Source: Cyanobacteriota bacterium
GTDB lineage: Bacteria > Acidobacteriota > Vicinamibacteria > Vicinamibacterales > UBA2999
NCBI GenBank assembly: GCA_019752015.1
Contig: JAIEMQ010000004.1
Coordinates: 1-64,000 of the forward strand
Direction of reading: 5' to 3'
DNA length: 64,000 nucleotides
The notes beneath the pieces were generated by a model. That model was not told the origin of the DNA. It did not search any database and saw nothing but the letters and a program-made list of their open reading frames with translations. The number at the start of each line of letters is the position of its first letter. Positions within the stretch are counted from its first letter, which is position 1. Made by a program: the position numbers and the translations under genes. This document shows, piece by piece, positions 3,760 through 59,935 of the stretch.

Positions 3760-4206
3760 TTAACGGCCGTTCGCGGCCTGCAGCTGCAACGCGCGCTCGA
3801 TGGTGGATATCGCGCGCTTCGCGGAGCCCGGCGTCAGGTCGGCCGCCATGATCGAGACGATGTATTCGTCGCCGCTCACCGAGACGATGAGCAGCGCGCG
3901 GCCGCCGTTGACGGTCGCGACGCGCTTGATGCGCGCCAGGTCCAGCTCCCAGTCAGCCTGGCCAATCTGTTCGGTGAAGGTCAGCTTGTTGTCGCGCAGC
4001 TTGAGGACACCGATCAAGCGGCCGCCCTTCGACTCGCGGGCGTCTTCGCTCATCGAAGCCGGCCGCTCGCTCAGGGCAGGCAGCCACTCCGCCATCCACA
4101 GCGCGCGCGGCGAGTCCGCGGCGAAGACAATGGTCGGAACCGCGAGAACACCGAGAAACTGCACGGTCAACGCCAGCCGAATAATCCAAAGCGAGCTGTT
4201 TTTCAT
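3760..4206 (-). CDS. Hypothetical secreted protein
   Basis: 148 aa from ATG 4206. An upstream ATG at 4233 lies inside the likely -10 box, and GAGGG before 4206 is a fair ribosome site. The first 32 residues form a signal peptide ending near VFAAD. The rest has alternating strands (GRLIGVLKLRDNKLTF, ALLIVSVSGDEYIVSI) and no named domain. Downstream of it on the same strand, 10 bp away, lies the zinc-ribbon gene, so they may be co-transcribed. The bases encoding LPALSERP resemble one arm of a palindrome family seen elsewhere in the window. Confidence 0.65.
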   Translation of the reverse strand: MKNSSLWIIRLALTVQFLGVLAVPTIVFAADSPRALWMAEWLPALSERPASMSEDARESKGGRLIGVLKLRDNKLTFTEQIGQADWELDLARIKRVATVNGGRALLIVSVSGDEYIVSIMAADLTPGSAKRAISTIERALQLQAANGR

Positions 4207-6685: not shown

Positions 6686-7378
6686 CTACTCGCCCGTCTT
6701 CTTCTTCTTTGTTTCCCATCGCGTGCGAATGGTCTTCTTGAACTTCGTCCATTTCGCCTTCTTGGCGTCCTTGTACTTCTGTTTCGGATCGCGATGCTCG
6801 CCGCCGGGGCGCCACTTGCTGTCGCGCGGGGCTTCGATGCCCTGGGATTTCTTGTATTCGGCTTTCGGGATCCAGGCGCGCTTTTCGCGGGGCTTGGGAC
6901 CTGGGGCTTGGGGCTTGGGAGTCCAGTCGAGCCCGCCTTCGCGCTTCGCGCTACGGCGAGGTCCTCGGCCTTCGGCCTCGGACTTCTGAAACTTCGGTCG
7001 CCATTCTGGCTTGCGATCGCGATCGAACGAACCCTTCGGCTTCCACTCCGGCTTTTCAGGGCGCCTGGGAGCTGGTGTGAACTCGCCCTTCGGCTTCCAA
7101 TCGAGCTTTTCGCGCGTGTTCTCCCGCTTGCGATCGCGGAAGCCGCCGCGCTGGCGCTCGTCGCCGCGCCGGCCCATTTCGCCGCGCGCGCGCATGGCTT
7201 CCTGCGCATCGACGCGCGAGGGCCACAGCTTGCCGTTCTGAAACCACTGCATCACGGCCGATGGATGCCTCTCCTTCAATCGCTTGAAGGTCGGCAGCAG
7301 GTCTTCCTGCGCCGCGGCGCGAAAGGCGGTGGGCTGCCCGTCGACGATGATGGTCCAGTAGGCGTAGCGCGGAGGCAT
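6686..7378 (-). CDS. Basic low-complexity protein with WKPKG-type repeats
   Basis: 230 aa. The first 70 residues (PPRYAYWTIIVDGQPTAFR... WFQNGKLW) look like a folded domain; the remainder is rich in Lys, Arg and Trp with repeated W-K/R-P-K blocks (DWKPKGEF, EWKPKGSF, EWRPKF, DWTPKP). It may bind nucleic acid, but this is only from composition. Two dispersed repeats lie in frame: the CTTGGGG heptamer array (PQAPGPKPREK) and a palindrome (GRGPRRSAKREGG). No named family. Confidence 0.65.
   Translation of the reverse strand: MPPRYAYWTIIVDGQPTAFRAAAQEDLLPTFKRLKERHPSAVMQWFQNGKLWPSRVDAQEAMRARGEMGRRGDERQRGGFRDRKRENTREKLDWKPKGEFTPAPRRPEKPEWKPKGSFDRDRKPEWRPKFQKSEAEGRGPRRSAKREGGLDWTPKPQAPGPKPREKRAWIPKAEYKKSQGIEAPRDSKWRPGGEHRDPKQKYKDAKKAKWTKFKKTIRTRWETKKKKTGE
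6889..6978. repeat. In-frame heptamer array plus palindromic element inside the WKPKG gene
   Basis: 6889-6923 holds GGGGCTT-type units as at 14203-14256. 6931-6978 holds a CTTCGCGCTTCGCG element related to the 31-bp array at 29680. Confidence 0.75.
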
Positions 7379-10816: not shown

Positions 10817-10866
10817 TACCTCCCTGACAATCTGCGTTCGGATTTTTCGCGTTGGCCTCCGGTGCG

Positions 10867-10884
10867 GTCCGCCTGAAGGCGGAC
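10867..10884. repeat. Dispersed palindrome GTCCGCCTGAAGGCGGAC
   Basis: Perfect 18-bp palindrome followed by CCTCACAGG. The same pair of sequences is at 34717-34742 and 59880-59905. It could end transcription of the two small genes upstream. Confidence 0.85.
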
Positions 10885-10968
10885 CCTCACAGGACTGACC
10901 TGGGGCCCACGGAAATCGACCTCTCTGCTAACAGATCCGTAAGTAGTCGTGCAAAAACAAAACTGTTA

Positions 10969-11177: not shown

Positions 11178-12311
11178 ATGAAAACTAGCACCGCCTCCGC
11201 CAAGGCTACGGCGAGTCAGGCTGGACGCGTTGAAGCCGGTCTTCCATTCGTGGAAGCGCTGGCCCGGCGCATGGCCGCGACGATGCCGCATTCGATCGAC
11301 CTCAGCGATCTCGTCCAGGATGGCGTGATCGGATTGATCGACGCGGCGCACCGCTTCGACGATTCGCGCGGCATCAAGTTCGAGACGTTCGCCGAGCGTC
11401 GCATCCGCGGCGCGATGATCGATGCGCTGCGCAAGGATGCGTGGCCGCGCGGCGTGCGGCGCGTGAGGCGCGAGCTCGAAGCGGCGCGCGAGAAATTACG
11501 CGCGACCCTCGGCCACGAGCCGTCGCTCGCCGATCTCGCCGAAGCGATCGGCTCCGACGAGAAGCGCTTGGGCAAGACCATCGTCCGGATCAACACGATC
11601 GAGTCGACGTCGCCGTTCTCGAGCGCCGAGAACGTCGATGAAGCGCAGCTGCCGGCGGTGCTGGTCCCCGCGGAGCCCGAGCGCCCCGACATGCAGTATG
11701 AGCGCGACGAAGTGAAGGAGCGCGTGCGCAACGCCATTGCCACGCTGCCGCCGCGCGAGCAGCGCGTGATCGCGCTTTACTACTACAACGAAGTCACGAT
11801 GAAGGACATCGGCGCCGAGCTCGGCGTCAACGAGTCACGCGTTTCGCAGTTGCATGCGCGAGCCATTCGCCGCCTGCGCGAAGCGCTCGGAGCGGACGTC
11901 ACGCCAGTTGCCGCATCGGCAGCCCTGCGTGACGCTATTGCAGCGTTCGAAGCGAACTCGAAGCCGAAGATGGCGAAGGCCGCGTTGCCGGCCGTCGCCG
12001 CGAAGCCGAAGCCGAAGGTTTCGATGCCGGAATCCGATACGCGAGTGCCGCATGCGGCGCAGAAGCGCGCGGGACTGGTGCTGGTGAAGAACGGGGATCA
12101 GGGATCGGGGATCGGGGATCGGGGATCGGAGAAAACTCAGGACAAAGTATCCCGAGCCGCGCGCAGCAAGTCGCCCAACCTGAAGGGCTTGGAGAGCCAG
12201 CGGCAACCGGTTTCCTCGAGGAAGCGTTCGGCGTCGGTGCCGGCCACGTCGCCGGTGACGAAGATCACGCGTCGCGCCAGCGCGGGCGTGGCGGCCGCCA
12301 TCGCGCGGTAG
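11178..12311 (+). CDS. FliA/WhiG-type RNA polymerase sigma factor with long C-terminal extension
   Basis: 377 aa from ATG 11178. Region 2 (LSDLVQDGVIGLIDAA, KFETFAERRIRGAMIDALR), region 3 (LEAAREKLRATLGHEPSLADLAEAIG) and region 4 (LPPREQRVIALYYYNEVTMKDIGAELGV) give a sigma28-type factor ending near residue 236. About 140 further residues are Ala/Lys-rich; after a GGGATCG heptamer array they run antisense through the end of the kinase gene. The native stop has probably been lost or moved. The N-terminal ASAKATASQAG comes from another dispersed element. No flagellar genes are nearby, so its regulon is open. Confidence 0.85.
   Translation: MKTSTASAKATASQAGRVEAGLPFVEALARRMAATMPHSIDLSDLVQDGVIGLIDAAHRFDDSRGIKFETFAERRIRGAMIDALRKDAWPRGVRRVRRELEAAREKLRATLGHEPSLADLAEAIGSDEKRLGKTIVRINTIESTSPFSSAENVDEAQLPAVLVPAEPERPDMQYERDEVKERVRNAIATLPPREQRVIALYYYNEVTMKDIGAELGVNESRVSQLHARAIRRLREALGADVTPVAASAALRDAIAAFEANSKPKMAKAALPAVAAKPKPKVSMPESDTRVPHAAQKRAGLVLVKNGDQGSGIGDRGSEKTQDKVSRAARSKSPNLKGLESQRQPVSSRKRSASVPATSPVTKITRRASAGVAAAIAR
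11191..11222. repeat. CGCCAAGGCTACGGCG-type element at the sigma-factor N-terminus
   Basis: Shares GCCAAGGCTACGG with 60900-60924 and nearly with 37822-37850. Read in frame as ASAKATASQ. Confidence 0.6.
12094..12129 (+). repeat. Heptamer array GGGATCG, five units, coding
   Basis: Units GGGATCA then GGGATCG four times. Encodes DQGSGIGDRGS in the sigma-factor extension. Same family as 45690-45725. Confidence 0.9.
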
Positions 12312-13723
12312 AACTGCATGCCGTCAATGCGCGGCATCTTGAGATCGCAGACGATCAAATCGTAACGGGCTTCGGTGAGGCGGGTCAGTCCCTCCTCACC
12401 ATCACCCGCTCGATCGACGGTAAAGCCCGCATCGACGAGCGCCTCTGATACCGCGACGGCCAGCGCGGGCTCATCCTCCACCACCAGCACACGCAAGCCC
12501 TTGAACGCTTCGAGCGAGATCGGCTGCTGCGGCGTCCGGCCCGCGGGCGCGTTGAGATGCTGGCCCGACACCGGCAGCTCGATGAAAAACGTCGCGCCCT
12601 GTCCTTTCTTCGACTCGACCCAGATGCGTCCGCCATGTTCCTGGACGATCGCGTAGGCAACCGTCAATCCAAGACCGGTGCCCTGGCCAACTTCCTTGGT
12701 CGTGAAGAACGGATCGAACACTTTTCCGGCACGCTCTTCAGGAATGCCAGGGCCATCATCGCTGACTTCGAGCACGAGCGATCCGCGCTCGGTGTCGTGC
12801 GACGTGCGGACGACGATGGTGCCTTTGCCGTTGGCGCCGATGCAGGCCTGCTCCGCGTTGATCAGGAGATTGAGAAGGACCTGCTTGATCTGGTGGCTGT
12901 CGGCGAAGACGTCCGGGAGCCCGGTGGCGAACGCCTCGACGATCTGGATGTTGGAAACCTTCTGCTCGCCCCTCGACGTTGCTCGGGGCGACCCTGAGCC
13001 TGTCGAAGGGTCGTAGGCGCGGAGCGCCAGCGTTTCGCGCGCGACCTGGTTGAGATCGACCATCGCGCGCGTGGTCTGTCGCTTGCGCGCGAAGGTCAGG
13101 AGGTTGCGGACAATGCGGGCGGCGCGCTCGGATTCGCCGAGGATGACCTCGAGCCCCTGCTTCGTCTTGTCGTCGACGTTTCTTTCGGAGAGCCGTTCGG
13201 CCCACGAGAGGATCGTCGCGAGCGGATTGTTCAGCTCATGCGCGACGCCTGAGATGGTCTGGCCGAGCGCGGCCATCTTCTCGGCCTGCAGCATCTGGTA
13301 GCGGCCGTCGCGAGTCTGATCCTCGCGCTTCTTCCGCTCGCTGACGTCGCGGACGAGCGCCTCGATATGCAGCATGGCGAGCTGCGTTTGATTCGCATGG
13401 ATCGGGCGGTGCGATGCGGTCGCGGAGACTTCGATCCAGATCGGCGATCCGTCGACGCGGCGGACGCGGATCAGGTGATCGGTGACGCCGCCGTCGCGAT
13501 CGAGCAGCTCGATGAAGTCCTGACGCGCCTGTGGATCGACGAAGCGCGTCGGCTCGAACGGCTGCACGAGATTTTCGGCAGCGTCGTGCGGGTATCCGAA
13601 GATTTCTTTGAGATGCGGATTGGCGGCAAGAGTGCTGGTGCTGTTGGCACCGAGGGCGCCGATGTAGACGCCCTCTTTTACGCCTTGAAATAATCGTGCG
13701 AACGCTATGGTGCGTTCATCCAC
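12137..13723 (-). CDS. PAS-domain hybrid histidine kinase with C-terminal receiver
   Basis: 528 aa, cytoplasmic. PAS domain (about 10-130), HisKA with VAHELNNPLATI, HATPase with NLLINAEQA, DDGPGIP and GQGTGLGL, then a receiver with phospho-acceptor in CDLKMPRIDG. No membrane segment, so the signal is intracellular. An insert DPSTGSGSPRATSR between the HisKA and HATPase parts is encoded by a palindromic element at 12989-13013. Its 3' end overlaps the sigma-factor frame by 175 bp in antisense. A partner for the sigma54 activator is possible. Confidence 0.93.
   Translation of the reverse strand: MDERTIAFARLFQGVKEGVYIGALGANSTSTLAANPHLKEIFGYPHDAAENLVQPFEPTRFVDPQARQDFIELLDRDGGVTDHLIRVRRVDGSPIWIEVSATASHRPIHANQTQLAMLHIEALVRDVSERKKREDQTRDGRYQMLQAEKMAALGQTISGVAHELNNPLATILSWAERLSERNVDDKTKQGLEVILGESERAARIVRNLLTFARKRQTTRAMVDLNQVARETLALRAYDPSTGSGSPRATSRGEQKVSNIQIVEAFATGLPDVFADSHQIKQVLLNLLINAEQACIGANGKGTIVVRTSHDTERGSLVLEVSDDGPGIPEERAGKVFDPFFTTKEVGQGTGLGLTVAYAIVQEHGGRIWVESKKGQGATFFIELPVSGQHLNAPAGRTPQQPISLEAFKGLRVLVVEDEPALAVAVSEALVDAGFTVDRAGDGEEGLTRLTEARYDLIVCDLKMPRIDGMQFYRAMAAATPALARRVIFVTGDVAGTDAERFLEETGCRWLSKPFRLGDLLRAARDTLS
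12989..13013. repeat. In-frame palindromic element (CGACCCT ... AGGGTCG) in the kinase gene
   Basis: 25 bp with 7-bp outer arms. On the coding strand it reads CCT TCG ACA GGC TCA GGG (PSTGSG), the same frame as the elements at 50268 and 50924. Confidence 0.8.
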
Positions 13724-13804: not shown

Positions 13805-14344
13805 CTATTTCTTCGCGGGTGGTGCGGGAGTCGGTGTGCGGCCGGCGGCGTTGCCGGGGGCCCAGCGCTTCTCGATGGCGGCGCGGATCGAATTGACGTC
13901 GGCGCCGGAGTTATAGAGCTGCATCGATTCACGCGCCACATCGACGCAGATCGTGCAGCCGAAGCCGTGCTCGTCCCACTGCAGCACGTTGCCTTTTGGA
14001 TCGCGTCGCGCGACGAAGCACGATTCGTTGGCCTTGTGTCCCTGTTCGCCGCATCCGCAGTAGCACGGGACGTACTTCAGAATCTCGGGATGCTGCGCCG
14101 CGAAGTCATACGTGGCGCGCACGACGTCCATCGGGCGCACCGGCGCGAAGCCGACGTTCGGGAGCGGCGGCGTCGAGACGCGCGTGCGCACGGGACCACT
14201 CAGGGGCTTGGGGCTTGGGGCTTGGGGCTTGGGGCTTGGGACTTGGGGCTTGGGGGCTGCCTGGTCTCCGGCCGCAACGACCGTCACGATGAGTGCGGCG
14301 CCTGCAAATCCGAGCAACGGTGTAATGAAATTCCGCGCTTGCAT
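13805..14344 (-). CDS. PCYCGC-motif secreted protein with heptamer-encoded linker
   Basis: 179 aa. Signal-like N-terminus (ITPLLGFAGAALIVTVVAAG), then a Pro/Lys linker of PSPKPQA units, then the Cys-rich domain YVPCYCGCGEQGHKANESC and GCTICVDVARE. PCYCGC proteins are exported and usually found with electron-transfer or metal proteins; function is unknown. The linker is encoded by seven GGGGCTT-type heptamers, so one extra or missing unit would abolish the Cys domain. Confidence 0.82.
   Translation of the reverse strand: MQARNFITPLLGFAGAALIVTVVAAGDQAAPKPQVPSPKPQAPSPKPLSGPVRTRVSTPPLPNVGFAPVRPMDVVRATYDFAAQHPEILKYVPCYCGCGEQGHKANESCFVARRDPKGNVLQWDEHGFGCTICVDVARESMQLYNSGADVNSIRAAIEKRWAPGNAAGRTPTPAPPAKK
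14203..14256. repeat. Heptamer array GGGGCTT, seven units, coding on minus strand
   Basis: Six GGGGCTT and one GGGACTT units in phase. It encodes the period-7 amino acid linker of the PCYCGC protein. Confidence 0.95.
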
Positions 14345-14415: not shown

Positions 14416-15645
14416 ATGAAGATCTTCGGCCGTCAGGATTTACTGCTGATAGCAGCGCTCACGACGGCCCTCGTCATCGTGTTTTCGTCGTCGATTTCGC
14501 GGCTGCTGGACTTCGCCCGCGACATCGAGCGGCAGAGCGGGCTGACGCTGGTCCCGGCGCTCGTCCTCCTGACCGGCGCATTTTTCTTTCATCAATACCG
14601 CCGCAATCACCAGCAAATGGCCAAGGCGGAAGCCGCCATGCTGGCGACTAAGGAAGCCGAGCACCGCGCCGAAGAGCTCGAGCGGCTGGTCGGATTCGGC
14701 CAGGCGCTCGGCCGCGGGCTGGATTTCGACAGCATCCGCGTGGCGATCACGCAGCACTTGCCGCAGATCGCCGGCACCGATCGCATGTGGGTGCTCGTGC
14801 AGCAGGGCGCCGACTGGATGGCGCTGGCCGGCGACACGCGCGGCGCCGAGGATGTCCTGCAGTGGGGCGATCTCGCCGAGCAGCTGCTGGCGAGCGGACC
14901 CGAGAAGACGCCGCAGAATCTCACCGACCAGCGCGCGATCGGCTTTCCATTGATCGTCGGCGGCAAGGCGGTCGGCGTGCTGGGCGTGAAGCCGCAGAAC
15001 GGCGTGCTCGATACCGATCGCCGGCGGATCATCGAAGCGGCGGCGGCGCTGCTCGCGGTATCGGTGAAGAACGCGCAGTTATTCCGCGAGGTGAAGGACA
15101 ACAGCGTGAAGGACGCGCTCACCGGTTGCTTCACGCGCGGACATGCGATCGACGTGATCGACGCGGAGCTCCGCCGCGCGCGCCGCAGCCAGACGCCGGT
15201 GTCGCTGATCATGTTCGACCTCGATCACTTCAAGGACGTCAACGATCGCTACGGCCACTTGTGTGGTGATGCGGTGTTGAGCGCGGTCGGCAAGCGCATG
15301 AAGGAAGTGCTGCGCGGATCGGATTTGAAGTGCCGCTACGGCGGTGAAGAATTCCTCGTGCTCTTACCCGAGACACCGCTGCATGGCGCGCGTCGAGTGG
15401 CGGAGACGCTGCGGCGTGAGATCGCCGAGCGGCCCGTGCCGTGGGCGGGTGAGGGATTGACGGTGACGGCGAGCTTCGGCCTCGCGCAGGCCATGCCGGG
15501 CGAAGTCAACGTGCAGGCCGTGATCGCGCGCGCGGATCAGGCGCTGTATCGAGCGAAGGATGACGGGCGGAATTGCGTTCGCATTGCCGCGGAGGCCGCG
15601 ACGCTCGTCTCAGACGAGACGCATCGACACAATCGGGTTAGCTGA
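14416..15645 (+). CDS. Membrane diguanylate cyclase with GAF domain
   Basis: 409 aa. Two membrane helices (about 8-25 and 42-60), coiled linker, GAF domain (about 90-215) and GGDEF domain (about 230-390) with active-site RYGGEEF. The inhibitory I-site RGSD lies five residues before GGEEF, so product inhibition is likely intact. It should make cyclic di-GMP. ATG 14416 follows a heptamer array; it is divergent from the PCYCGC gene. Confidence 0.93.
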   Translation: MKIFGRQDLLLIAALTTALVIVFSSSISRLLDFARDIERQSGLTLVPALVLLTGAFFFHQYRRNHQQMAKAEAAMLATKEAEHRAEELERLVGFGQALGRGLDFDSIRVAITQHLPQIAGTDRMWVLVQQGADWMALAGDTRGAEDVLQWGDLAEQLLASGPEKTPQNLTDQRAIGFPLIVGGKAVGVLGVKPQNGVLDTDRRRIIEAAAALLAVSVKNAQLFREVKDNSVKDALTGCFTRGHAIDVIDAELRRARRSQTPVSLIMFDLDHFKDVNDRYGHLCGDAVLSAVGKRMKEVLRGSDLKCRYGGEEFLVLLPETPLHGARRVAETLRREIAERPVPWAGEGLTVTASFGLAQAMPGEVNVQAVIARADQALYRAKDDGRNCVRIAAEAATLVSDETHRHNRVS

Positions 15646-15725
15646 ATCTGTTGATCTGTTGATCTGTTGATCTATTGATCTGTTGATTCCAGCTCAAGAG
15701 ATCAACAGCTCAATAGCTCACGAGA
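15646..15725. terminator. Hairpin of TGTTGATC octamers between convergent genes
   Basis: About four TGTTGATC units are followed by the reverse-complement GATCAACA, giving a long stem between the ends of the GGDEF and MFS genes. Confidence 0.65.
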
Positions 15726-29646: not shown

Positions 29647-29679
29647 CTGACGATGTCAGATTTTAGATCGTCCGCCCGC

Positions 29680-29803
29680 CTTCGCGCTGCGCGCTTCGGC
29701 GAGGCAGGCCCTTCGCGCTGCGCGCTTCGGCGAGGCAGGCCCTTCGCGCTGCGCGCTTCGGCGAGGCAGGCCCATCGCGCTGCGCGCTTCGGCGAGACCG
29801 GCT
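29680..29803. repeat. 31-bp tandem array, four copies
   Basis: Units start at 29680, 29711, 29742 and 29773 with core CTTCGCGCTGCGCGCTTCGG, followed by CGAGGCAGGCC. The last copy runs to the stop of the GAF gene. A relative of the unit lies inside the gene at 6686. Confidence 0.95.
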
Positions 29804-34686: not shown

Positions 34687-34716
34687 AAGAAGAGAATTCT
34701 ATCCCGGAGCGGCGCG

Positions 34717-34900
34717 GTCCGCCTAAAGGCGGACCCTCACAGGTTTACAGAAGAATCGTCTGGGTTTACAAAAGAATCGTCGGGGTTTACAAAAGAATCG
34801 TCGGGGTTTACAGAAGAATCGTCTGGGGTTTACAGAAGAATCGTCTGGGGTCGAGTTTAGTTTACAGAAGAATCCTGTGGGGGTCCGGCTTTAGCCGGAC
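34717..34900. repeat. Composite repeat: palindrome, six 22-24-bp units, palindrome
   Basis: GTCCGCCTAAAGGCGGAC (34717-34734) plus CCTCACAGG, then about six GTTTACAGAAGAATCGTC units (34743-34880), then GTCCGGCTTTAGCCGGAC (34883-34900) ending just before the M1 stop. No gene is seen in the gap 34687-34901. Confidence 0.92.
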
Positions 34901-48012: not shown

Positions 48013-48615
48013 ATGGCGCGCAAGAAAATCGACGAATCCCGACGGGATTTCTTAAAGACGGTCGGCGTGGTGGCGTCCGCTTCCGCGTCGCTCACTATCG
48101 CCCCCGAGGCTAGGGCGAGACAGGCCCTCGCTACGCTCGGGCCTGGCGAGGTTCCCGTCACGCTGACAATCAACGGACGACGGCATCAGTTGAACGTCGA
48201 GCCGCGCGTCACGCTGCTCGATGCGATGCGGACGCGGCTCGAGATCACCGGCCAGAAGCGCGTCTGCGATCGCGGTGCGTGCGGCGCGTGCACTGTAATC
48301 ATCGAGGGGCGCACGTATTACTCCTGCTCGATGCTGGCAATCGAAGCGCAGGGAAAAAACATCCGGACCGTTGACGGGCTCGCGAACGGCAGCACGCTGC
48401 ATCCCGTGCAACAAGCCTTCTGCGACAACGACGGTCTGATGTGCGGCTTCTGCACGCCGGGCTTCGTGATGGCGACGGTCGCGCTGCTCGAGAAGAATCC
48501 GAATCCAACTCCGGAACAGGCCAAGCGGGCGCTCGACGGAAATCTCTGTCGATGCGGCACCAACATCGGCGTATTGAAAGCTGCGCTTGCCGTGAAGGGA
48601 GGCGCGCGTGGATAA
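48013..48615 (+). CDS. Tat-exported [2Fe-2S] subunit of aldehyde/xanthine oxidoreductase (PaoA/YagT-like)
   Basis: 200 aa. Twin-arginine signal SRRDFLKT, then plant-type ferredoxin (CDRGACGACTV with the fourth Cys in YYSC) and the C-terminal second cluster domain (CGFCTPG and CRCGT). First gene of a three-gene Mo-hydroxylase operon, overlapping the large-subunit gene by 8 bp. The signal implies a periplasmic enzyme, as in PaoABC. A palindromic element at 48122-48144 extends the linker after the signal (EARARQALATLGPGE). Confidence 0.92.
   Translation: MARKKIDESRRDFLKTVGVVASASASLTIAPEARARQALATLGPGEVPVTLTINGRRHQLNVEPRVTLLDAMRTRLEITGQKRVCDRGACGACTVIIEGRTYYSCSMLAIEAQGKNIRTVDGLANGSTLHPVQQAFCDNDGLMCGFCTPGFVMATVALLEKNPNPTPEQAKRALDGNLCRCGTNIGVLKAALAVKGGARG
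48122..48144. repeat. In-frame element AGGCCC ... GGGCCT in paoA-like
   Basis: 6-bp arms around TCGCTACGCTC. Lies in the linker between Tat signal and ferredoxin domain. Confidence 0.6.
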
Positions 48616-50869
48616 CGGTTCCCGGATCCCGGCTTCCGGTTCCCGCCAGGTTGCGGAGGTGCAGGCGCCAGCGAGACCTCCGCAACATGAAAAGTATCCG
48701 TGGCCCGAGAAGTCGCGGCTCCTCGGCACGCGCGTGTCGCGCATCGACGGGCCGATGAAGGTTTCGGGACGCGCGAAATATTCGTACGACATCGTGCGGC
48801 CGGGCATGCTCTATGGCCGGATCCTGCGATCGCCGCACGCGCACGCGCGTTTGAAGAGCATCGACGCATCGGCGGCGGAGAAGGCGCCCGGCGTCAAGGC
48901 ACTGCTCATCACGATCAAACCGGGCGAGAAAGTGATGTTCCCCGGCGAGGAAATCGGCGCGCTCGCGGCCGCCACCGAACAGCAGGCGGCAGACGCTCTG
49001 CGAATGATCAAGGTCGAGTGGGAAGTGCTGCCCGCGCTCGCGAACGTCGAGCAGGCCATGCGTCCGGAAGCGCCGCAGGTGTTCACGCCCGCCAACACAC
49101 GCCGCGGCACGGCGCAGGAAGACGGCGATCTCGCCGCGGGCTTCAAGTCAGCCGCGTTCACCGTTGAAGGCACTTACTCGACGCAGGTGCAGACGCACAC
49201 GTCGCTCGAGACGCACGGCTGCGTGTGCGAATGGAACGGCGACAACCTGACGGCGTGGGTGTCGACGCAGGCGGTGCACGGCACGCGCGAAGGCTTCGCG
49301 CAGGGGCTGAAGATTCCGCAGGCCAACGTGCGCGTGATCACCGAATTCATGGGCGGCGGCTTCGGCAGCAAGTTCGGCCCCGACATGCAGGGGTTGCTGT
49401 GCGCGCGGCTCGCCAAGGCGGCCAACGCGCCCGTCAAGCTGATGCTCGATCGCAAGGAAGAGCATCTCGCAACCGGCAATCGTCCATCCGCGTTCGCCAA
49501 GGTCAAAGCGGGTGTGTCCGCCGACGGCAAGCTCACCGCGTTCGATGCGACGACGTGGGGTACGGGTGGAGCGGGAGCGGGATCCGATTACCCGCTGCCG
49601 TATATCTACGTGTTCCCGAATCGCCGGCGCATGCACACCGACGTCTACATCAACTCGGGACAGCAGCGCGCCATGCGCGCGCCGGGACATCCGCAAGGAT
49701 GTTTCGTGACCGAAGTGTTGATGGACGAGCTCGCGGATCAAGTGCGGATGGATCCGATGGAGTTCCGCCTCAAGAACCTGCCGCCGCTGGCGCCGAATGC
49801 GATGTGGGCGAAGTACTTCCCGATGGGCGCGGAGCGGATCAACTGGAAGAGCCGGCATGTCACGGGTGATCCCACGCCTGGTCCGATCAAGCGCGGCCTC
49901 GGCTGCTCCGCGAATCGCTGGGGCGGCGCGGGCACCGGCGCTCGCGCGCATTGCGAGATCGCGTCGGACGGCAGCGTCGTGATGCGCTGCGGCACGCAGG
50001 ACATCGGCACCGGCAACCGCACCATCATGGCCATGGTCGTCGCGGAAACGCTCGGGCTCGAAGTGCCGCAGATCACGATCGAGCTCGGCGACAGCCATCA
50101 TCCGTTCGCGCCGGGCTCGGGTGGATCGACAACGGCCGCCGCCGTGATGCCGGCGATGAGAGTGACCGCGGGCAAGGCGCGCGATGCGTTGTTCGAGCGC
50201 ATTGCGCCGCAGCTGGGGGTGGCGGCGACGGAGATCAACATCGGTGTCGGCGAAGTTCACGTCGTGAGCCCTTCGACTCCTGACAGTTCGGCCTCTGGCC
50301 AAACTGCCAGTCGCTCAGGGCAGGCTCCCATTCTTCGCCGAGTCGCCTGGCGCGACGCCTGCAAGATGCTCGGCACGGTTCCGGTGTCGGTGGATGGGCA
50401 GTGGGAGCGCGGCCTGTCGGCCGGCGGCACGAGCGGCGTGCAGTTCGCCGAGGTCGAAGTCGACATCGAGACCGGCATCACGAAGGTGAAGAAGATCGTG
50501 TGCGTGCAGGACTGCGGGCTGGTCGTCGATCTGAAGACCGCCGAGACGCAGTGCCACGGCGGCATCATCAGCGGCGTGAACTACGGGGTGTTCGAAGAGC
50601 GCATTCTCGATCGCAACACCGCGAACATGGTCAACCCGAACATGGAGTGGTACCACATGGCCGGGCAGTCGGACATTCCGGAGATTGATGTCGTGCTCGT
50701 CGACACACCGGAACGGGGAGTGATTGGCATCGGCGAGCCGCCCGCCGTGGCGACCGCGGCAGCGGTCGCGAATGCGATACGCAACGCCACTGGCGTGACG
50801 CTGCGCAACATTCCGATCACGCCGGACAAATTGCTGACGGAGCTCGAGCGGGCGGGAGGCACGAATTGA
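48608..50869 (+). CDS. Molybdopterin-binding large subunit (PaoC/YagR-like)
   Basis: 753 aa. GTRVSRIDGPMKVSGRAKY start, GGGFGSKFG Moco site, QRAMRAPGHPQ, GTQDIGTGNRT and the catalytic Glu in GIGEPPAVAT. Oxidises aldehydes or N-heterocycles with water as oxygen source. The gene order is A-C-B rather than A-B-C as in E. coli. A 54-bp palindromic insert (50268-50321, SPSTPDSSASGQTASRSG) interrupts the domain near residue 560. The N-terminal NGSRIPASGSRQ also looks repeat-derived. Confidence 0.92.
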   Translation: MDNGSRIPASGSRQVAEVQAPARPPQHEKYPWPEKSRLLGTRVSRIDGPMKVSGRAKYSYDIVRPGMLYGRILRSPHAHARLKSIDASAAEKAPGVKALLITIKPGEKVMFPGEEIGALAAATEQQAADALRMIKVEWEVLPALANVEQAMRPEAPQVFTPANTRRGTAQEDGDLAAGFKSAAFTVEGTYSTQVQTHTSLETHGCVCEWNGDNLTAWVSTQAVHGTREGFAQGLKIPQANVRVITEFMGGGFGSKFGPDMQGLLCARLAKAANAPVKLMLDRKEEHLATGNRPSAFAKVKAGVSADGKLTAFDATTWGTGGAGAGSDYPLPYIYVFPNRRRMHTDVYINSGQQRAMRAPGHPQGCFVTEVLMDELADQVRMDPMEFRLKNLPPLAPNAMWAKYFPMGAERINWKSRHVTGDPTPGPIKRGLGCSANRWGGAGTGARAHCEIASDGSVVMRCGTQDIGTGNRTIMAMVVAETLGLEVPQITIELGDSHHPFAPGSGGSTTAAAVMPAMRVTAGKARDALFERIAPQLGVAATEINIGVGEVHVVSPSTPDSSASGQTASRSGQAPILRRVAWRDACKMLGTVPVSVDGQWERGLSAGGTSGVQFAEVEVDIETGITKVKKIVCVQDCGLVVDLKTAETQCHGGIISGVNYGVFEERILDRNTANMVNPNMEWYHMAGQSDIPEIDVVLVDTPERGVIGIGEPPAVATAAAVANAIRNATGVTLRNIPITPDKLLTELERAGGTN
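50268..50321 (+). repeat. 54-bp in-frame palindromic element in paoC-like
   Basis: Begins GCCCTTCGACT and ends CGCTCAGGGC; the centre is an imperfect 14-bp inverted repeat (CTGACAGTTCGGCC / GGCCAAACTGCCAG). Adds exactly 18 codons. Confidence 0.8.
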
Positions 50870-51882
50870 AGACGTTCTCTTACGTGAACGCGACGAATGA
50901 AAAAGAAGCCGTCGCGGCGCTCAGCCCTTCGACTCGCGACGGCCACGGCGACGCCTTGGCCGCCGCTCGCTCAGGGCACCAACCCTCGAAGGTCCCGATT
51001 GCCGGGGGGATGGACCTTCTCGGGTTGATGAAGGACTACATCGTGTCGCCCGACCGCGTGGTGTCGATCAAGGGACTCGATCAGACGATCGCATCCGGCG
51101 ATGGTGGATTGCGGATCGGCGCTGCCGTGAAGATCGCCGATCTTGCCGAGCATGCCGCCGCGCGAAAGATGTATCCCGCGCTGGTGACCGCTGCTGAAGG
51201 CGTCGGCACGCCGCAAATCCGCAACATGGGCACCGTCGGCGGCAACATCATGCAGCGGCCGCGCTGCTGGTACTTCCGCAATGAAGAGTTCAACTGCCTG
51301 AAGAAGGGCGGCTCGCGCTGCTTCGCGGTCGACGGCGAGAACCAGTTCCACGCGATCTTCGGCGACGGTCCGTGCCACATCGTTCACCCGTCGAGCCTCG
51401 CGGTGCCGGTGATCGCGTACGGCGGCAGGTTCCGCGTTGCCGGACCGAACGGCGCGCGCGAGATCGACGCCGGCGAATTCTTCCAGATGCCGAACGCGAA
51501 TCTCTACGGCGAGAACGTGCTGCAGCCGAACGAGATCGTCACGCACGTGATCCTGCCGGCGCCAGGGCAGCGCAGCGCGTCGTATGAAGTGCGCTTCAAG
51601 CAGTCGCACGACTGGCCGCTCGCGGCGGCGTCAGTCAACCTCGTGATGTCGGGATCGACAGTGAAATCCGCGCGCATCGTGATGGGCGCCGTCGCGCCGA
51701 TTCCGTGGCGGGTCCAGGCGGCGGAGCGCATGCTCGCCGGCAAAACGATTACCGAAGGCGTCGCGACCGACGTTGCGAACGCGGCTGTCGCCGGCGCGCG
51801 GCCGATGACGGGCAACCAGTACAAAATTCAAATCGCGAGAACGGCCGTTAAGCGCGCGGTACTGGCAGCGGGGCGAGCGTGA
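50866..51882 (+). CDS. FAD and [4Fe-4S] subunit (PaoB/YagS-like)
   Basis: 338 aa from TTG 50866 overlapping the stop of the large subunit (TTGA). FAD-binding PIAGGMDLLGLMK and GTVGGNIMQRPRC, and an inserted Cys set (CWYFR, NCLKKGG, RCFAVDG, PCHIV) that binds a [4Fe-4S] cluster as in PaoB and 4-hydroxybenzoyl-CoA reductase. A 54-bp element (50924-50977) adds SPSTRDGHGDALAAARSG after residue 19, just before the FAD loop. Confidence 0.9.
   Translation: MKTFSYVNATNEKEAVAALSPSTRDGHGDALAAARSGHQPSKVPIAGGMDLLGLMKDYIVSPDRVVSIKGLDQTIASGDGGLRIGAAVKIADLAEHAAARKMYPALVTAAEGVGTPQIRNMGTVGGNIMQRPRCWYFRNEEFNCLKKGGSRCFAVDGENQFHAIFGDGPCHIVHPSSLAVPVIAYGGRFRVAGPNGAREIDAGEFFQMPNANLYGENVLQPNEIVTHVILPAPGQRSASYEVRFKQSHDWPLAAASVNLVMSGSTVKSARIVMGAVAPIPWRVQAAERMLAGKTITEGVATDVANAAVAGARPMTGNQYKIQIARTAVKRAVLAAGRA
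50924..50977 (+). repeat. 54-bp in-frame palindromic element in paoB-like
   Basis: Same length, ends and reading frame as 50268-50321, but a different centre. Arms GCCCTTCGACTCGCGACGGC and its imperfect mirror ending CTCAGGGC. Confidence 0.8.
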
Positions 51883-53559: not shown

Positions 53560-54297
53560 ATGCCCGCAACCAAGGTCGCCTTAATCACGGGCGGCAAACG
53601 CATCGGCGCGGTCGTCGCGGCCACGCTCGCGAAGGCGGGCGCCGATATTGCGCTGGTCTACAACCGATCGCGCGAAGAGGCGGATGAGACATCTGCCGAA
53701 GTGCGCGCGCTCGGCCGGCGCGCGTTCGCCGTTCAAGCCGACGTCAGCAGCGATCAGGCCTGCGGCAACGCCGTCGCCGCGACCATCACAGAGCTCGGAC
53801 GCATCGACATTCTGATCAACATGGCGTCGCTCTACGCGTCGAAGCCATTCGATCAATTGACGGCCGCGGACTGGGACAAACAGCTCGCGGTCGATCTTCG
53901 CGCCGCGTTCCTGTTCTCGCATGCCGCCGCTTCGTCGATGAAAAGGAACGGCGGCGGACGCATCATCAATTTCTCCGACTGGGTTGCTGCCAGCGCGCGG
54001 CCGCGATATCCGGGCTACGTTCCGTACTACGTCGCCAAGGCCGGCGTGAAGGCGCTGACCGAAGTGCTGGCGCTCGAGCTCGCGGCCGATCAGATTCTCG
54101 TCAACGCGATCGCGCCGGGGCCGATTCTTGCGCCGCCGGAGATGTCGAAGGAAGAAAGCGATGCGGTCGTGAAGAGCACGCCGCTCGGCCGGTGGGGCGG
54201 CGAAGAGGAAATCGCGAAGACCGTGATGTTCCTCGTCAACTCGGATTTCGTCACCGGCGAAACCATTCGCGTGGATGGAGGAAGGCACGTGAAGTAA
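53560..54297 (+). CDS. SDR oxidoreductase, pteridine-reductase-like
   Basis: 245 aa from ATG 53560. The cofactor motif TGGKRIG follows the TG-x3-R-x-G pattern of PTR1/FolM enzymes, with YNRS suggesting NADPH. Catalytic parts: INMASLY, Ser near FSDWVAAS and YYVAKAG. May reduce dihydropteridines or dihydrofolate; other ketoreductase roles are possible. The stop is followed directly by a GTTAAAA array. The MetF-like gene at 55665 makes a folate link plausible. Confidence 0.85.
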   Translation: MPATKVALITGGKRIGAVVAATLAKAGADIALVYNRSREEADETSAEVRALGRRAFAVQADVSSDQACGNAVAATITELGRIDILINMASLYASKPFDQLTAADWDKQLAVDLRAAFLFSHAAASSMKRNGGGRIINFSDWVAASARPRYPGYVPYYVAKAGVKALTEVLALELAADQILVNAIAPGPILAPPEMSKEESDAVVKSTPLGRWGGEEEIAKTVMFLVNSDFVTGETIRVDGGRHVK

Positions 54298-54360
54298 GTT
54301 AAAAGTTAAAAGTTAAAAGTTAAAAGTTAAAAGTTAAAAGTTAAAAGTTAAAAATTAAAA
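54298..54360. repeat. Heptamer array GTTAAAA, nine copies
   Basis: Starts at the base after the SDR stop. Same unit as 7391-7444. The interval from here to 54478 has no recognisable gene. Confidence 0.95.
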
Positions 54361-54478
54361 ATGATTCCACGTTCCGGGAGCGGTGATGTCGCGGATCTGG
54401 TATCTGTGGCTTCGGGGCCCAATACTCTCTCCAGGCACGATCGGATGGATGAGAGGCTCGCGGCGCGGGAACCTGTTC

Positions 54479-59844: not shown

Positions 59845-59879
59845 GGATCCCCCAGAGACAGGCATTCTACGTCCGTTCG

Positions 59880-59935
59880 GTCCGCCTGAAGGCGGACCCT
59901 CACAGGCTTTGGTGAGGGTCCGGCTTTAGCCGGAC
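59880..59935. repeat. Two palindromes joined by CCTCACAGG
   Basis: GTCCGCCTGAAGGCGGAC (59880-59897) and GTCCGGCTTTAGCCGGAC (59918-59935), the same pair as around 34717-34900. The second encodes VRLKPD at the end of the next gene and the stop lies between them. Confidence 0.88.

Follow-up and report, generated by a model that had tools for sequence, protein, structure and literature searches.

What are the two inserts of equal length that lie in neighbouring genes of a molybdenum-hydroxylase cluster in an Acidobacteriota genome, with common ends and different middles? The window analysed here is the 64,000-nucleotide stretch at positions 1 to 64,000 of contig JAIEMQ010000004.1 (assembly GCA_019752015.1, labelled Cyanobacteriota bacterium and placed by GTDB in the Acidobacteriota order Vicinamibacterales), in which PaoA-, PaoC- and PaoB-like genes form the cluster at 48013-51882, the NCBIfam names being best matches below the cut-offs. 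The inserts, at 50268-50321 in the paoC-like gene and 50924-50977 in the paoB-like gene, are both 54 bp long, start with GCCCTTCGACT, finish with CTCAGGGC and form imperfect palindromes whose inner stems differ (left arm 50280-50293, loop 50294-50296 and right arm 50297-50310 in the former; 50936-50949, 50950-50952 and 50953-50966 in the latter); they are translated as VSPSTPDSSASGQTASRSGQ and LSPSTRDGHGDALAAARSGH, respectively. On balance, we consider it probable that they belong to a non-autonomous, REPIN-like, strand-specific family of mobile DNA hairpins, whose stem sequence is free to change but stays self-complementary.

The pair had been described in the original prediction, made from the window alone, and was confirmed at both places. 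The same holds for a shorter relative in a minus-strand histidine kinase gene (12989-13013), expected to read PSTGSG and found to read DPSTGSGS; by eye, it is half of a two-hairpin stretch, which sits between domains (Pfam HisKA ends at residue 216 and HATPase_c starts at residue 275). A third 54-bp copy, at 4024-4077, had been overlooked. Within the window, GCCCTTCGACT occurs seven times with at most one mismatch (three exact) vs. 1.79 expected, a count that 0 of 100 shuffles reached; a looser 17-bp pattern, with up to three mismatches, stayed at chance level (12 vs. 8.7 expected, 13 of 100 shuffles reaching 12).

At the level of the source genome, the long two-ended pattern CCTTCGACT-N20-50-GCTCAGG gave 42 matches vs. 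0 for the reversed-pattern control, and CCCTTCGAC-N1-30-CTCAGGG, which takes in both short and long forms, gave 62. The long pattern is present in all nine genomes of the genus examined, with 1-98 matches per genome, and the reversed control is 0 everywhere except for 1 in G007; since this control can yield one match, the lone matches in G005 and G008 carry little weight. As for the phylum, matches were found in 88 of the 396 sampled genomes, and about 58 genomes (hand count of the table) had at least one reversed match, so that single matches are at chance level. At least five matches were found in 30 of the 396 genomes (largest control total 3, also counted by hand): five in the genus, four in the rest of the order and 21 in a family of another class, f19. 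Chance or a shared protein domain as the source of the inserts is ruled out by the reversed control together with the gaps in outgroup orthologues described below. Phage carriage was also considered and rejected, a stricter form of the long pattern occurring in five stretches of the viral collection.

A total of 146 distinct long elements were extracted, of which 144 were kept, L128 and L202 being dropped as nested; 60 of the 98 copies of G006 were analysed, and five of the 24 of G007 and G008 together, all under the G007 label. Their consensus is (Y)CCTTCGACTC[G] - inner stem - [C]TCGCTCAGG(R)CAGGC, with elements of about 45-60 bp and cores of 37-54 bp. The ends, CCTTCGACTC and TCGCTCAGGRCAGGC, are asymmetric, their inverted match extending over only about 4-5 bp, and the AGGC tail (GCCT on the other strand) is exact in 57 of the 144 copies, keeps three of the four letters in 44 and is otherwise in 43. 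Constancy of the ends is partly a product of ascertainment, the pattern itself making them perfect; copies found without it (L069 paoC and L070 paoB) have small changes in their ends.

The original prediction held that the ends are fixed and the middle is free to vary. The sequence of the middle does vary, 142 of the 144 inner sequences being distinct, but it is not unconstrained, as its self-complementarity is kept. The best stem is centred at the same position in 130 of the 144 elements, and a symmetric inner stem is at least 60% paired in 132; 1339 of the 1555 positions in these 132 elements are Watson-Crick pairs, the 12 that failed the threshold being left aside. The stem score is 8.5 vs. 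3.0 in shuffled inner sequences, and 91.7% of the 144 elements lie above the 95th percentile of the shuffles. In the 48-bp elements (n = 41), 456 of 533 positions are Watson-Crick vs. 221 ± 12 when the right arms were redealt (maximum of 267 in 1000 deals). Concerning f19, 52 elements, hand-picked by eye for the long-stem type to the exclusion of shorter ones, have 40 distinct left arms, and 449 of their 468 positions are paired vs. 281.5 ± 9.5.

Two tandem arrangements were seen in G006: a copy with a 39-bp core is repeated with a period of 45, i.e. the core plus 6 bp, and at the paoB site (L069 5250-5360) the element has its 5' end doubled in tandem (PSTRD-PSTRD), with the frame kept.

How the arms change was followed at orthologous sites. 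Flank comparison, picked by hand, gave 18 sites with an element in at least two genomes, four of which rest on a single flank (L048/L159, L129/L179, L156/L160 and L200/L096); the listed pairs L054/L196, L128/L094, L131/L164, L164/L173, L185/L201 and the L205 tandem pair were excluded. Length is equal at 12 sites and differs at six. At the 12 equal-length sites, native pairing amounts to 420 of 482 positions vs. 323 of 482 in chimeras joining a left arm to the right arm of its orthologue. Among 241 pair-columns, which come from 19 genome pairs at the 12 sites (nine pairs from two sites) and are not independent events, 152 show no change, 45 have changes in both arms and are Watson-Crick in both genomes, nine have changes in both arms without being so, and 35 have a change in one arm. 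The 45 compensated columns consist of 25 transition and 20 transversion pairs, and the latter are not obtainable through G.T intermediates alone. At the paoB site, the stems of three genomes (G000, G001 and G006) are strongly different, each still pairing. Arm turnover is established only for the source genus.

The same sites bear on a rather unlikely alternative, namely wholesale replacement, in which a stem is overwritten by another copy of the same genome, either by gene conversion or when an element re-inserts into a copy already present. Several equal-length orthologous stems (S3, S5) have common cores, with differences in the form of compensated pairs scattered around them, and orthologous stem identity averages 0.68 (19 pairs) vs. 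0.40-0.43 between non-orthologous stems, both of which speak against overwriting, although the G006 paoB stem is 90% identical to the L167 stem elsewhere and resembles, by eye, the paoC stem of its own genome, when the paoB and paoC stems differ in G000 and G001. Equal-length pairs with an identity of at least 0.75 are also more frequent within genomes (27/446) than between them (17/1041), and the six sites of differing length fit replacement as well; the common ends, at about 10 bp, are short for homologous exchange. A mixture of forms is seen at the aconitase site: long forms with different paired stems in G000 and G006 (that of G006 interrupted by further hairpins), a short form in G002 and G003 (read PSTGSGQ) and in G007 (read PSTSSGQ), and neither form in G001, G004 and G005. 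The long form looks like a short form with a hairpin set in its loop, or the reverse.

The mismatches that remain in the stems bear on which of the two strands folds. On the element strand, A.C outnumbers G.T (82 vs. 30, p 9e-7; 67 vs. 31 with the other stem definition), C.T outnumbers A.G (44 vs. 15, p 2e-4) and C.C outnumbers G.G (28 vs. 9, p 0.003), in counts that include related copies. Their opposite-strand equivalents, G.T, G.A and G.G, are more stable mismatches. The closing pair is C-G in 104 elements, C.A in 20, T-A in 18, C.C in two and T.G in none. With DNA parameters, the inner stem folds at -10.89 on the opposite strand vs. -10.00 on the element strand (p 1.4e-8), the opposite strand folding better in 91, worse in 35 and equally well in 18 of the 144 elements; random windows lean slightly in the other direction (p 0.03). 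The small f19 sample has 11 A.C and four G.T mismatches. Both mismatch types and folding energies thus favour the opposite strand, 5'-GCCTGYCCTGAGCGA...GAGTCGAAGG.

A hairpin kept paired at each site by selection on RNA, for mRNA stability, termination or attenuation, was weighed against these data and is judged unlikely. The stems covary as structured RNAs do, the opposite strand is more stable with RNA parameters too (128/144), and RNA roles have been argued for REPs, in passages of PMC3733652, from GT pairing of stem residues. Nevertheless, the less favoured strand is the one in the mRNA for 37 of the 43 clearly genic copies, whose mismatches in the mRNA sense are A.C in 21 cases vs. G.U in eight, and the same asymmetry is found in the copies that are not clearly genic (A.C 62, G.T 24). 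Positions 50100-51100 gave no Rfam match near the gathering score. The preponderance of the less favoured strand in the mRNA of genic copies (37/43) suggests that the folding unit is single-stranded DNA rather than host mRNA.

Based on a criterion of 40 codons on each side and a codon score trained on 40 open reading frames (ORFs) of the window, 43 of the 144 copies are clearly genic, 40 are unsure and 61 lie outside ORFs. The original prediction saw a protein-invading family read in a single frame. Dispersal, common ends and in-frame copies in unrelated proteins were all borne out; with only 43 clearly genic copies, the family is not specific to proteins, and the single frame had to be abandoned, four being in use: +0 (15 copies), +2 (17), +1 (5) and one minus frame (6). 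The third opposite frame is closed by a stop in the element ends, and the strand split of the genic copies deviates from the 3:2 ratio of the open frames (p 2.7e-4). The check on insert length modulo 3, proposed with that prediction, showed an excess of multiples of three: the core is divisible by three in 101 of the 144 copies, in 55 of 89 clusters once orthologues and similar stems are merged (p 5e-8) and in 22 of 40 clusters outside ORFs (p 0.006).

Besides the genes of the window, hosts recognised from flanking-fragment matches are aconitase AcnA, MurG, RsmE, FabZ, threonine synthase, Mfd, dihydrolipoyl acyltransferase and a sulphur transporter. In-genus comparison gave three relatives without the element for RsmE (net +27 nt in the source genome), six for MurG (+33 nt, or +54 vs. 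one of them) and four for the sulphur transporter (+36 nt), where G004 has a copy. As for threonine synthase, copies are found in G000, G002 and G005 (with decayed ends in G005), the four others being without; the gain is 24 nt vs. three element-free relatives and 3 nt vs. G007. These in-frame copies in unrelated housekeeping proteins, and the excess of frame-neutral core lengths, are what one would expect of a protein-level element like the Rickettsia palindromic elements, retained for its peptide; such an origin is nonetheless very improbable, given four frames, peptides that differ from copy to copy and 61 copies outside ORFs.

The insertions in the paoB- and paoC-like genes are most simply taken as old, since two relatives of the same genus (Acidobacteriota; L069 and L070, taken as loci of G006 and G001, respectively, L070 giving exactly the alignment of the G001 locus L098) hold inserts at the same sites. 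The three closest outgroup orthologues (L100-L102, from three other genera, with PaoB 60-62% identical) have neither insert, which answers for them the question, raised with the original prediction, whether relatives lack these residues. On the simplest reading of the sequences, insertion would have preceded the split of G000, G001 and G006. Elsewhere, there are signs of mobility: an inner identity of at least 0.85 is reached within a genome by 16 pairs of separate copies, each of them in G006, and in 14 of these pairs both flank scores are at or below the 95th percentile of the background, including L176/L204, L076/L171, L168/L194 and L184/L195, the last being identical elements with flanks at background. 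The exceptions with elevated flank scores are L162/L172 (23, where the background does not exceed 18) and L176/L181 (15 vs. 14); L172, L176 and L181 are located in similar short tandem arrays. Mobility is indicated because near-identical copies stand in unlike flanks.

A number of results weigh against a family of mobile, strand-specific hairpins with rewritten stems. No mobiliser was found at Y1-transposase loci: among 48 of them (all 44 of the genus and four of G411/G389), a single one has an element vs. 2.6 expected at genome density, namely L392/L145 (G001:C178), where some 0.46 kb separate the element from the Y1 match. Nor does copy number follow the Y1 count over the nine genomes (rho 0.06, p 0.88), with 13 Y1 matches in G000, one in G006, which has the most elements, and five in G005 and G008, which have one element match each. 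In the compared orthologous linkers, strongly diverged as they are, neither a precise empty site nor a duplicated target could be made out, and the element-free threonine synthase linker of G007 is just 3 nt shorter. In G330 (G330:C1), 41 of 50 short and long elements are oriented as the GC-skew half in which they lie (Fisher 9e-6, runs z -4.8; skew boundaries drawn after seeing the skew and 50 of 60 matches used), which makes the folding strand the leading-strand template, where single-strand transposition would call for the lagging-strand one. The arms were not observed to change in f19, where eight of 11 shared sites are identical; nine of the 11 have flanks 94-100% alike and are little informative, and of the two with flanks below 90%, one is a 47-bp element (L306, L333, L300, L325 and L346) identical in five genomes with flanks 82-88% alike, and the other has an unchanged stem. 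Finally, the 4024 copy has its more stable fold on the element strand (-17.3 vs. -15.6), related copies are part of the mismatch counts, and strand-biased mutation could be the source of part of the asymmetry.

A RAYT mobiliser is unsupported by Y1 neighbourhoods and copy number, though a RAYT may act from a distance. According to parts of PMC8266576, TnpA-REP enzymes recognise single-stranded hairpins strand-specifically and some systems tolerate tag changes. For a mobile DNA hairpin of the kind favoured here, a nuclease or recombinase would recognise the opposite single strand by its ends and its hairpin shape, and the stem could drift while still folding because its sequence would not be what the enzyme reads. 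A change in one arm would probably be copied to the other through template switching during replication, a process described in sections of PMC8794818 as able to make and mend hairpins, and copies unable to fold would drop out of propagation. Genic insertions would survive in protein linkers, provided that the length gained is divisible by three, and a gene-dense genome would favour element lineages of frame-neutral length. The full scheme, a selfish DNA defined by its shape, with a single-strand enzyme acting on the ends, a stem rewritten from arm to arm and a length tuned to multiples of three, is offered tentatively and is doubtful as a whole.

Such REP-like hairpins, living in-frame within Acidobacteriota housekeeping genes, provide a natural series of orthologous hairpins (none, short, long and re-paired) on which template-switch copying can be tested against selection, two views of pairing maintenance also debated for RNA stems in the portion of PMC8794818 concerned. 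They also call for caution in annotation, some protein segments in this group being derived from repeats.

The features of the window are given in Table 1. For the host gene of the 4024 copy, three ORFs tested there had no Pfam match.

Table 1. Hairpin elements and their host genes in the 64,000-nucleotide window.
Feature	Positions	Strand	Description
Element in paoC-like gene	50268..50325	+	GCCCTTCGACTC, inner hairpin 50280-50310, TCGCTCAGGGC, AGGC tail
Element in paoB-like gene	50924..50977	+	GCCCTTCGACTC, inner hairpin 50936-50966, TCGCTCAGGGC; AGGC tail lost
Third long copy (54 bp at 4024-4077)	4024..4081	+	Positions include the AGGC tail
Two-hairpin stretch in histidine kinase gene 12137-13723(-)	12968..13012	-	Short copy CCCTTCGACAGGCTCAGGG 12992-13010 adjoins GCCCCTCGACGTTGCTCGGGGC 12968-12989
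Host gene, molybdenum hydroxylase large subunit (XdhA/PaoC-like)	48608..50869	+	NCBIfam below cut-offs; Pfam MoCoBD_1, MoCoBD_2
Host gene, FAD-binding subunit (XdhB/PaoB-like)	50866..51882	+	NCBIfam below cut-offs; Pfam FAD_binding_5

Other repeats are present in the window. A different palindromic family, made of tandem 31-bp units CCTTCGCGCTGCGCGCTTCGGCGAGGCAGGC with the same GCAGGC end, is found at 29674-29802 and 6931-6961, and three 34-bp copies with a GGTCCGCCTGAAGGCGGACC-type palindrome at 10860-10893, 34710-34743 and 59873-59906. Short tandem arrays, their units being about 7-8 bp long, are common (e.g. 12079-12143, 14203-14255, 15626-15699 and 54265-54377), some units being common to different places.

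As for known systems, a literature search with short-form sequence and peptide strings, covering few subscription journals, returned no relevant paper. Integron attC sites, as presented in parts of PMC2727003, share recognition of a folded single strand by its structure, little sequence conservation and the use of one strand; here, however, the elements are dispersed singly, many of them inside genes, and the integron core-site motif is absent from the element consensus. The Rickettsia palindromic elements are also palindromic and inserted in-frame in unrelated proteins, but in the account available from PMC10969869 they are about 150 bp long with a conserved peptide, vs. about 54 bp and no fixed peptide or frame here. 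Template-switch hairpins (PMC8794818), for which the mechanism proposed is the copying of one arm from the other, and the coding palindromes of Nematomorpha mitochondria (PMC6649704) share complementary arms, within coding sequence in the latter case; the relevant parts of these two papers do not present them as dispersed families with common ends.

The closest likeness is to REP and REPIN elements with their RAYTs, which are short mobile hairpins with conserved ends (portions of PMC3116915 and PMC3733652) and, for REPINs, a variable middle in which length and folding matter and compensatory changes are common (the same portion of PMC3116915), features also seen here. Intragenic REPs have been found in several species, as excerpted from PMC3733652. 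The ends of a REPIN, however, are two inverted copies of one REP, whereas those of the present elements are not inverted copies; the unpaired GTAG or CGTC tag of REPs is replaced by an AGGC (GCCT) tail, there is no regular RAYT (Y1) neighbour, and many copies lie in-frame in housekeeping genes. REP doublets of P. fluorescens SBW25 are spaced by 71 or 110 bp, in the excerpts compared, vs. about 54 bp here. Beyond the parts of the REP, REPIN and Rickettsia palindromic element literature that were compared, the present data add an Acidobacteriota family with asymmetric ends and a GCCT tail, together with its covariation at orthologous sites, strand asymmetry and frame-neutral length.

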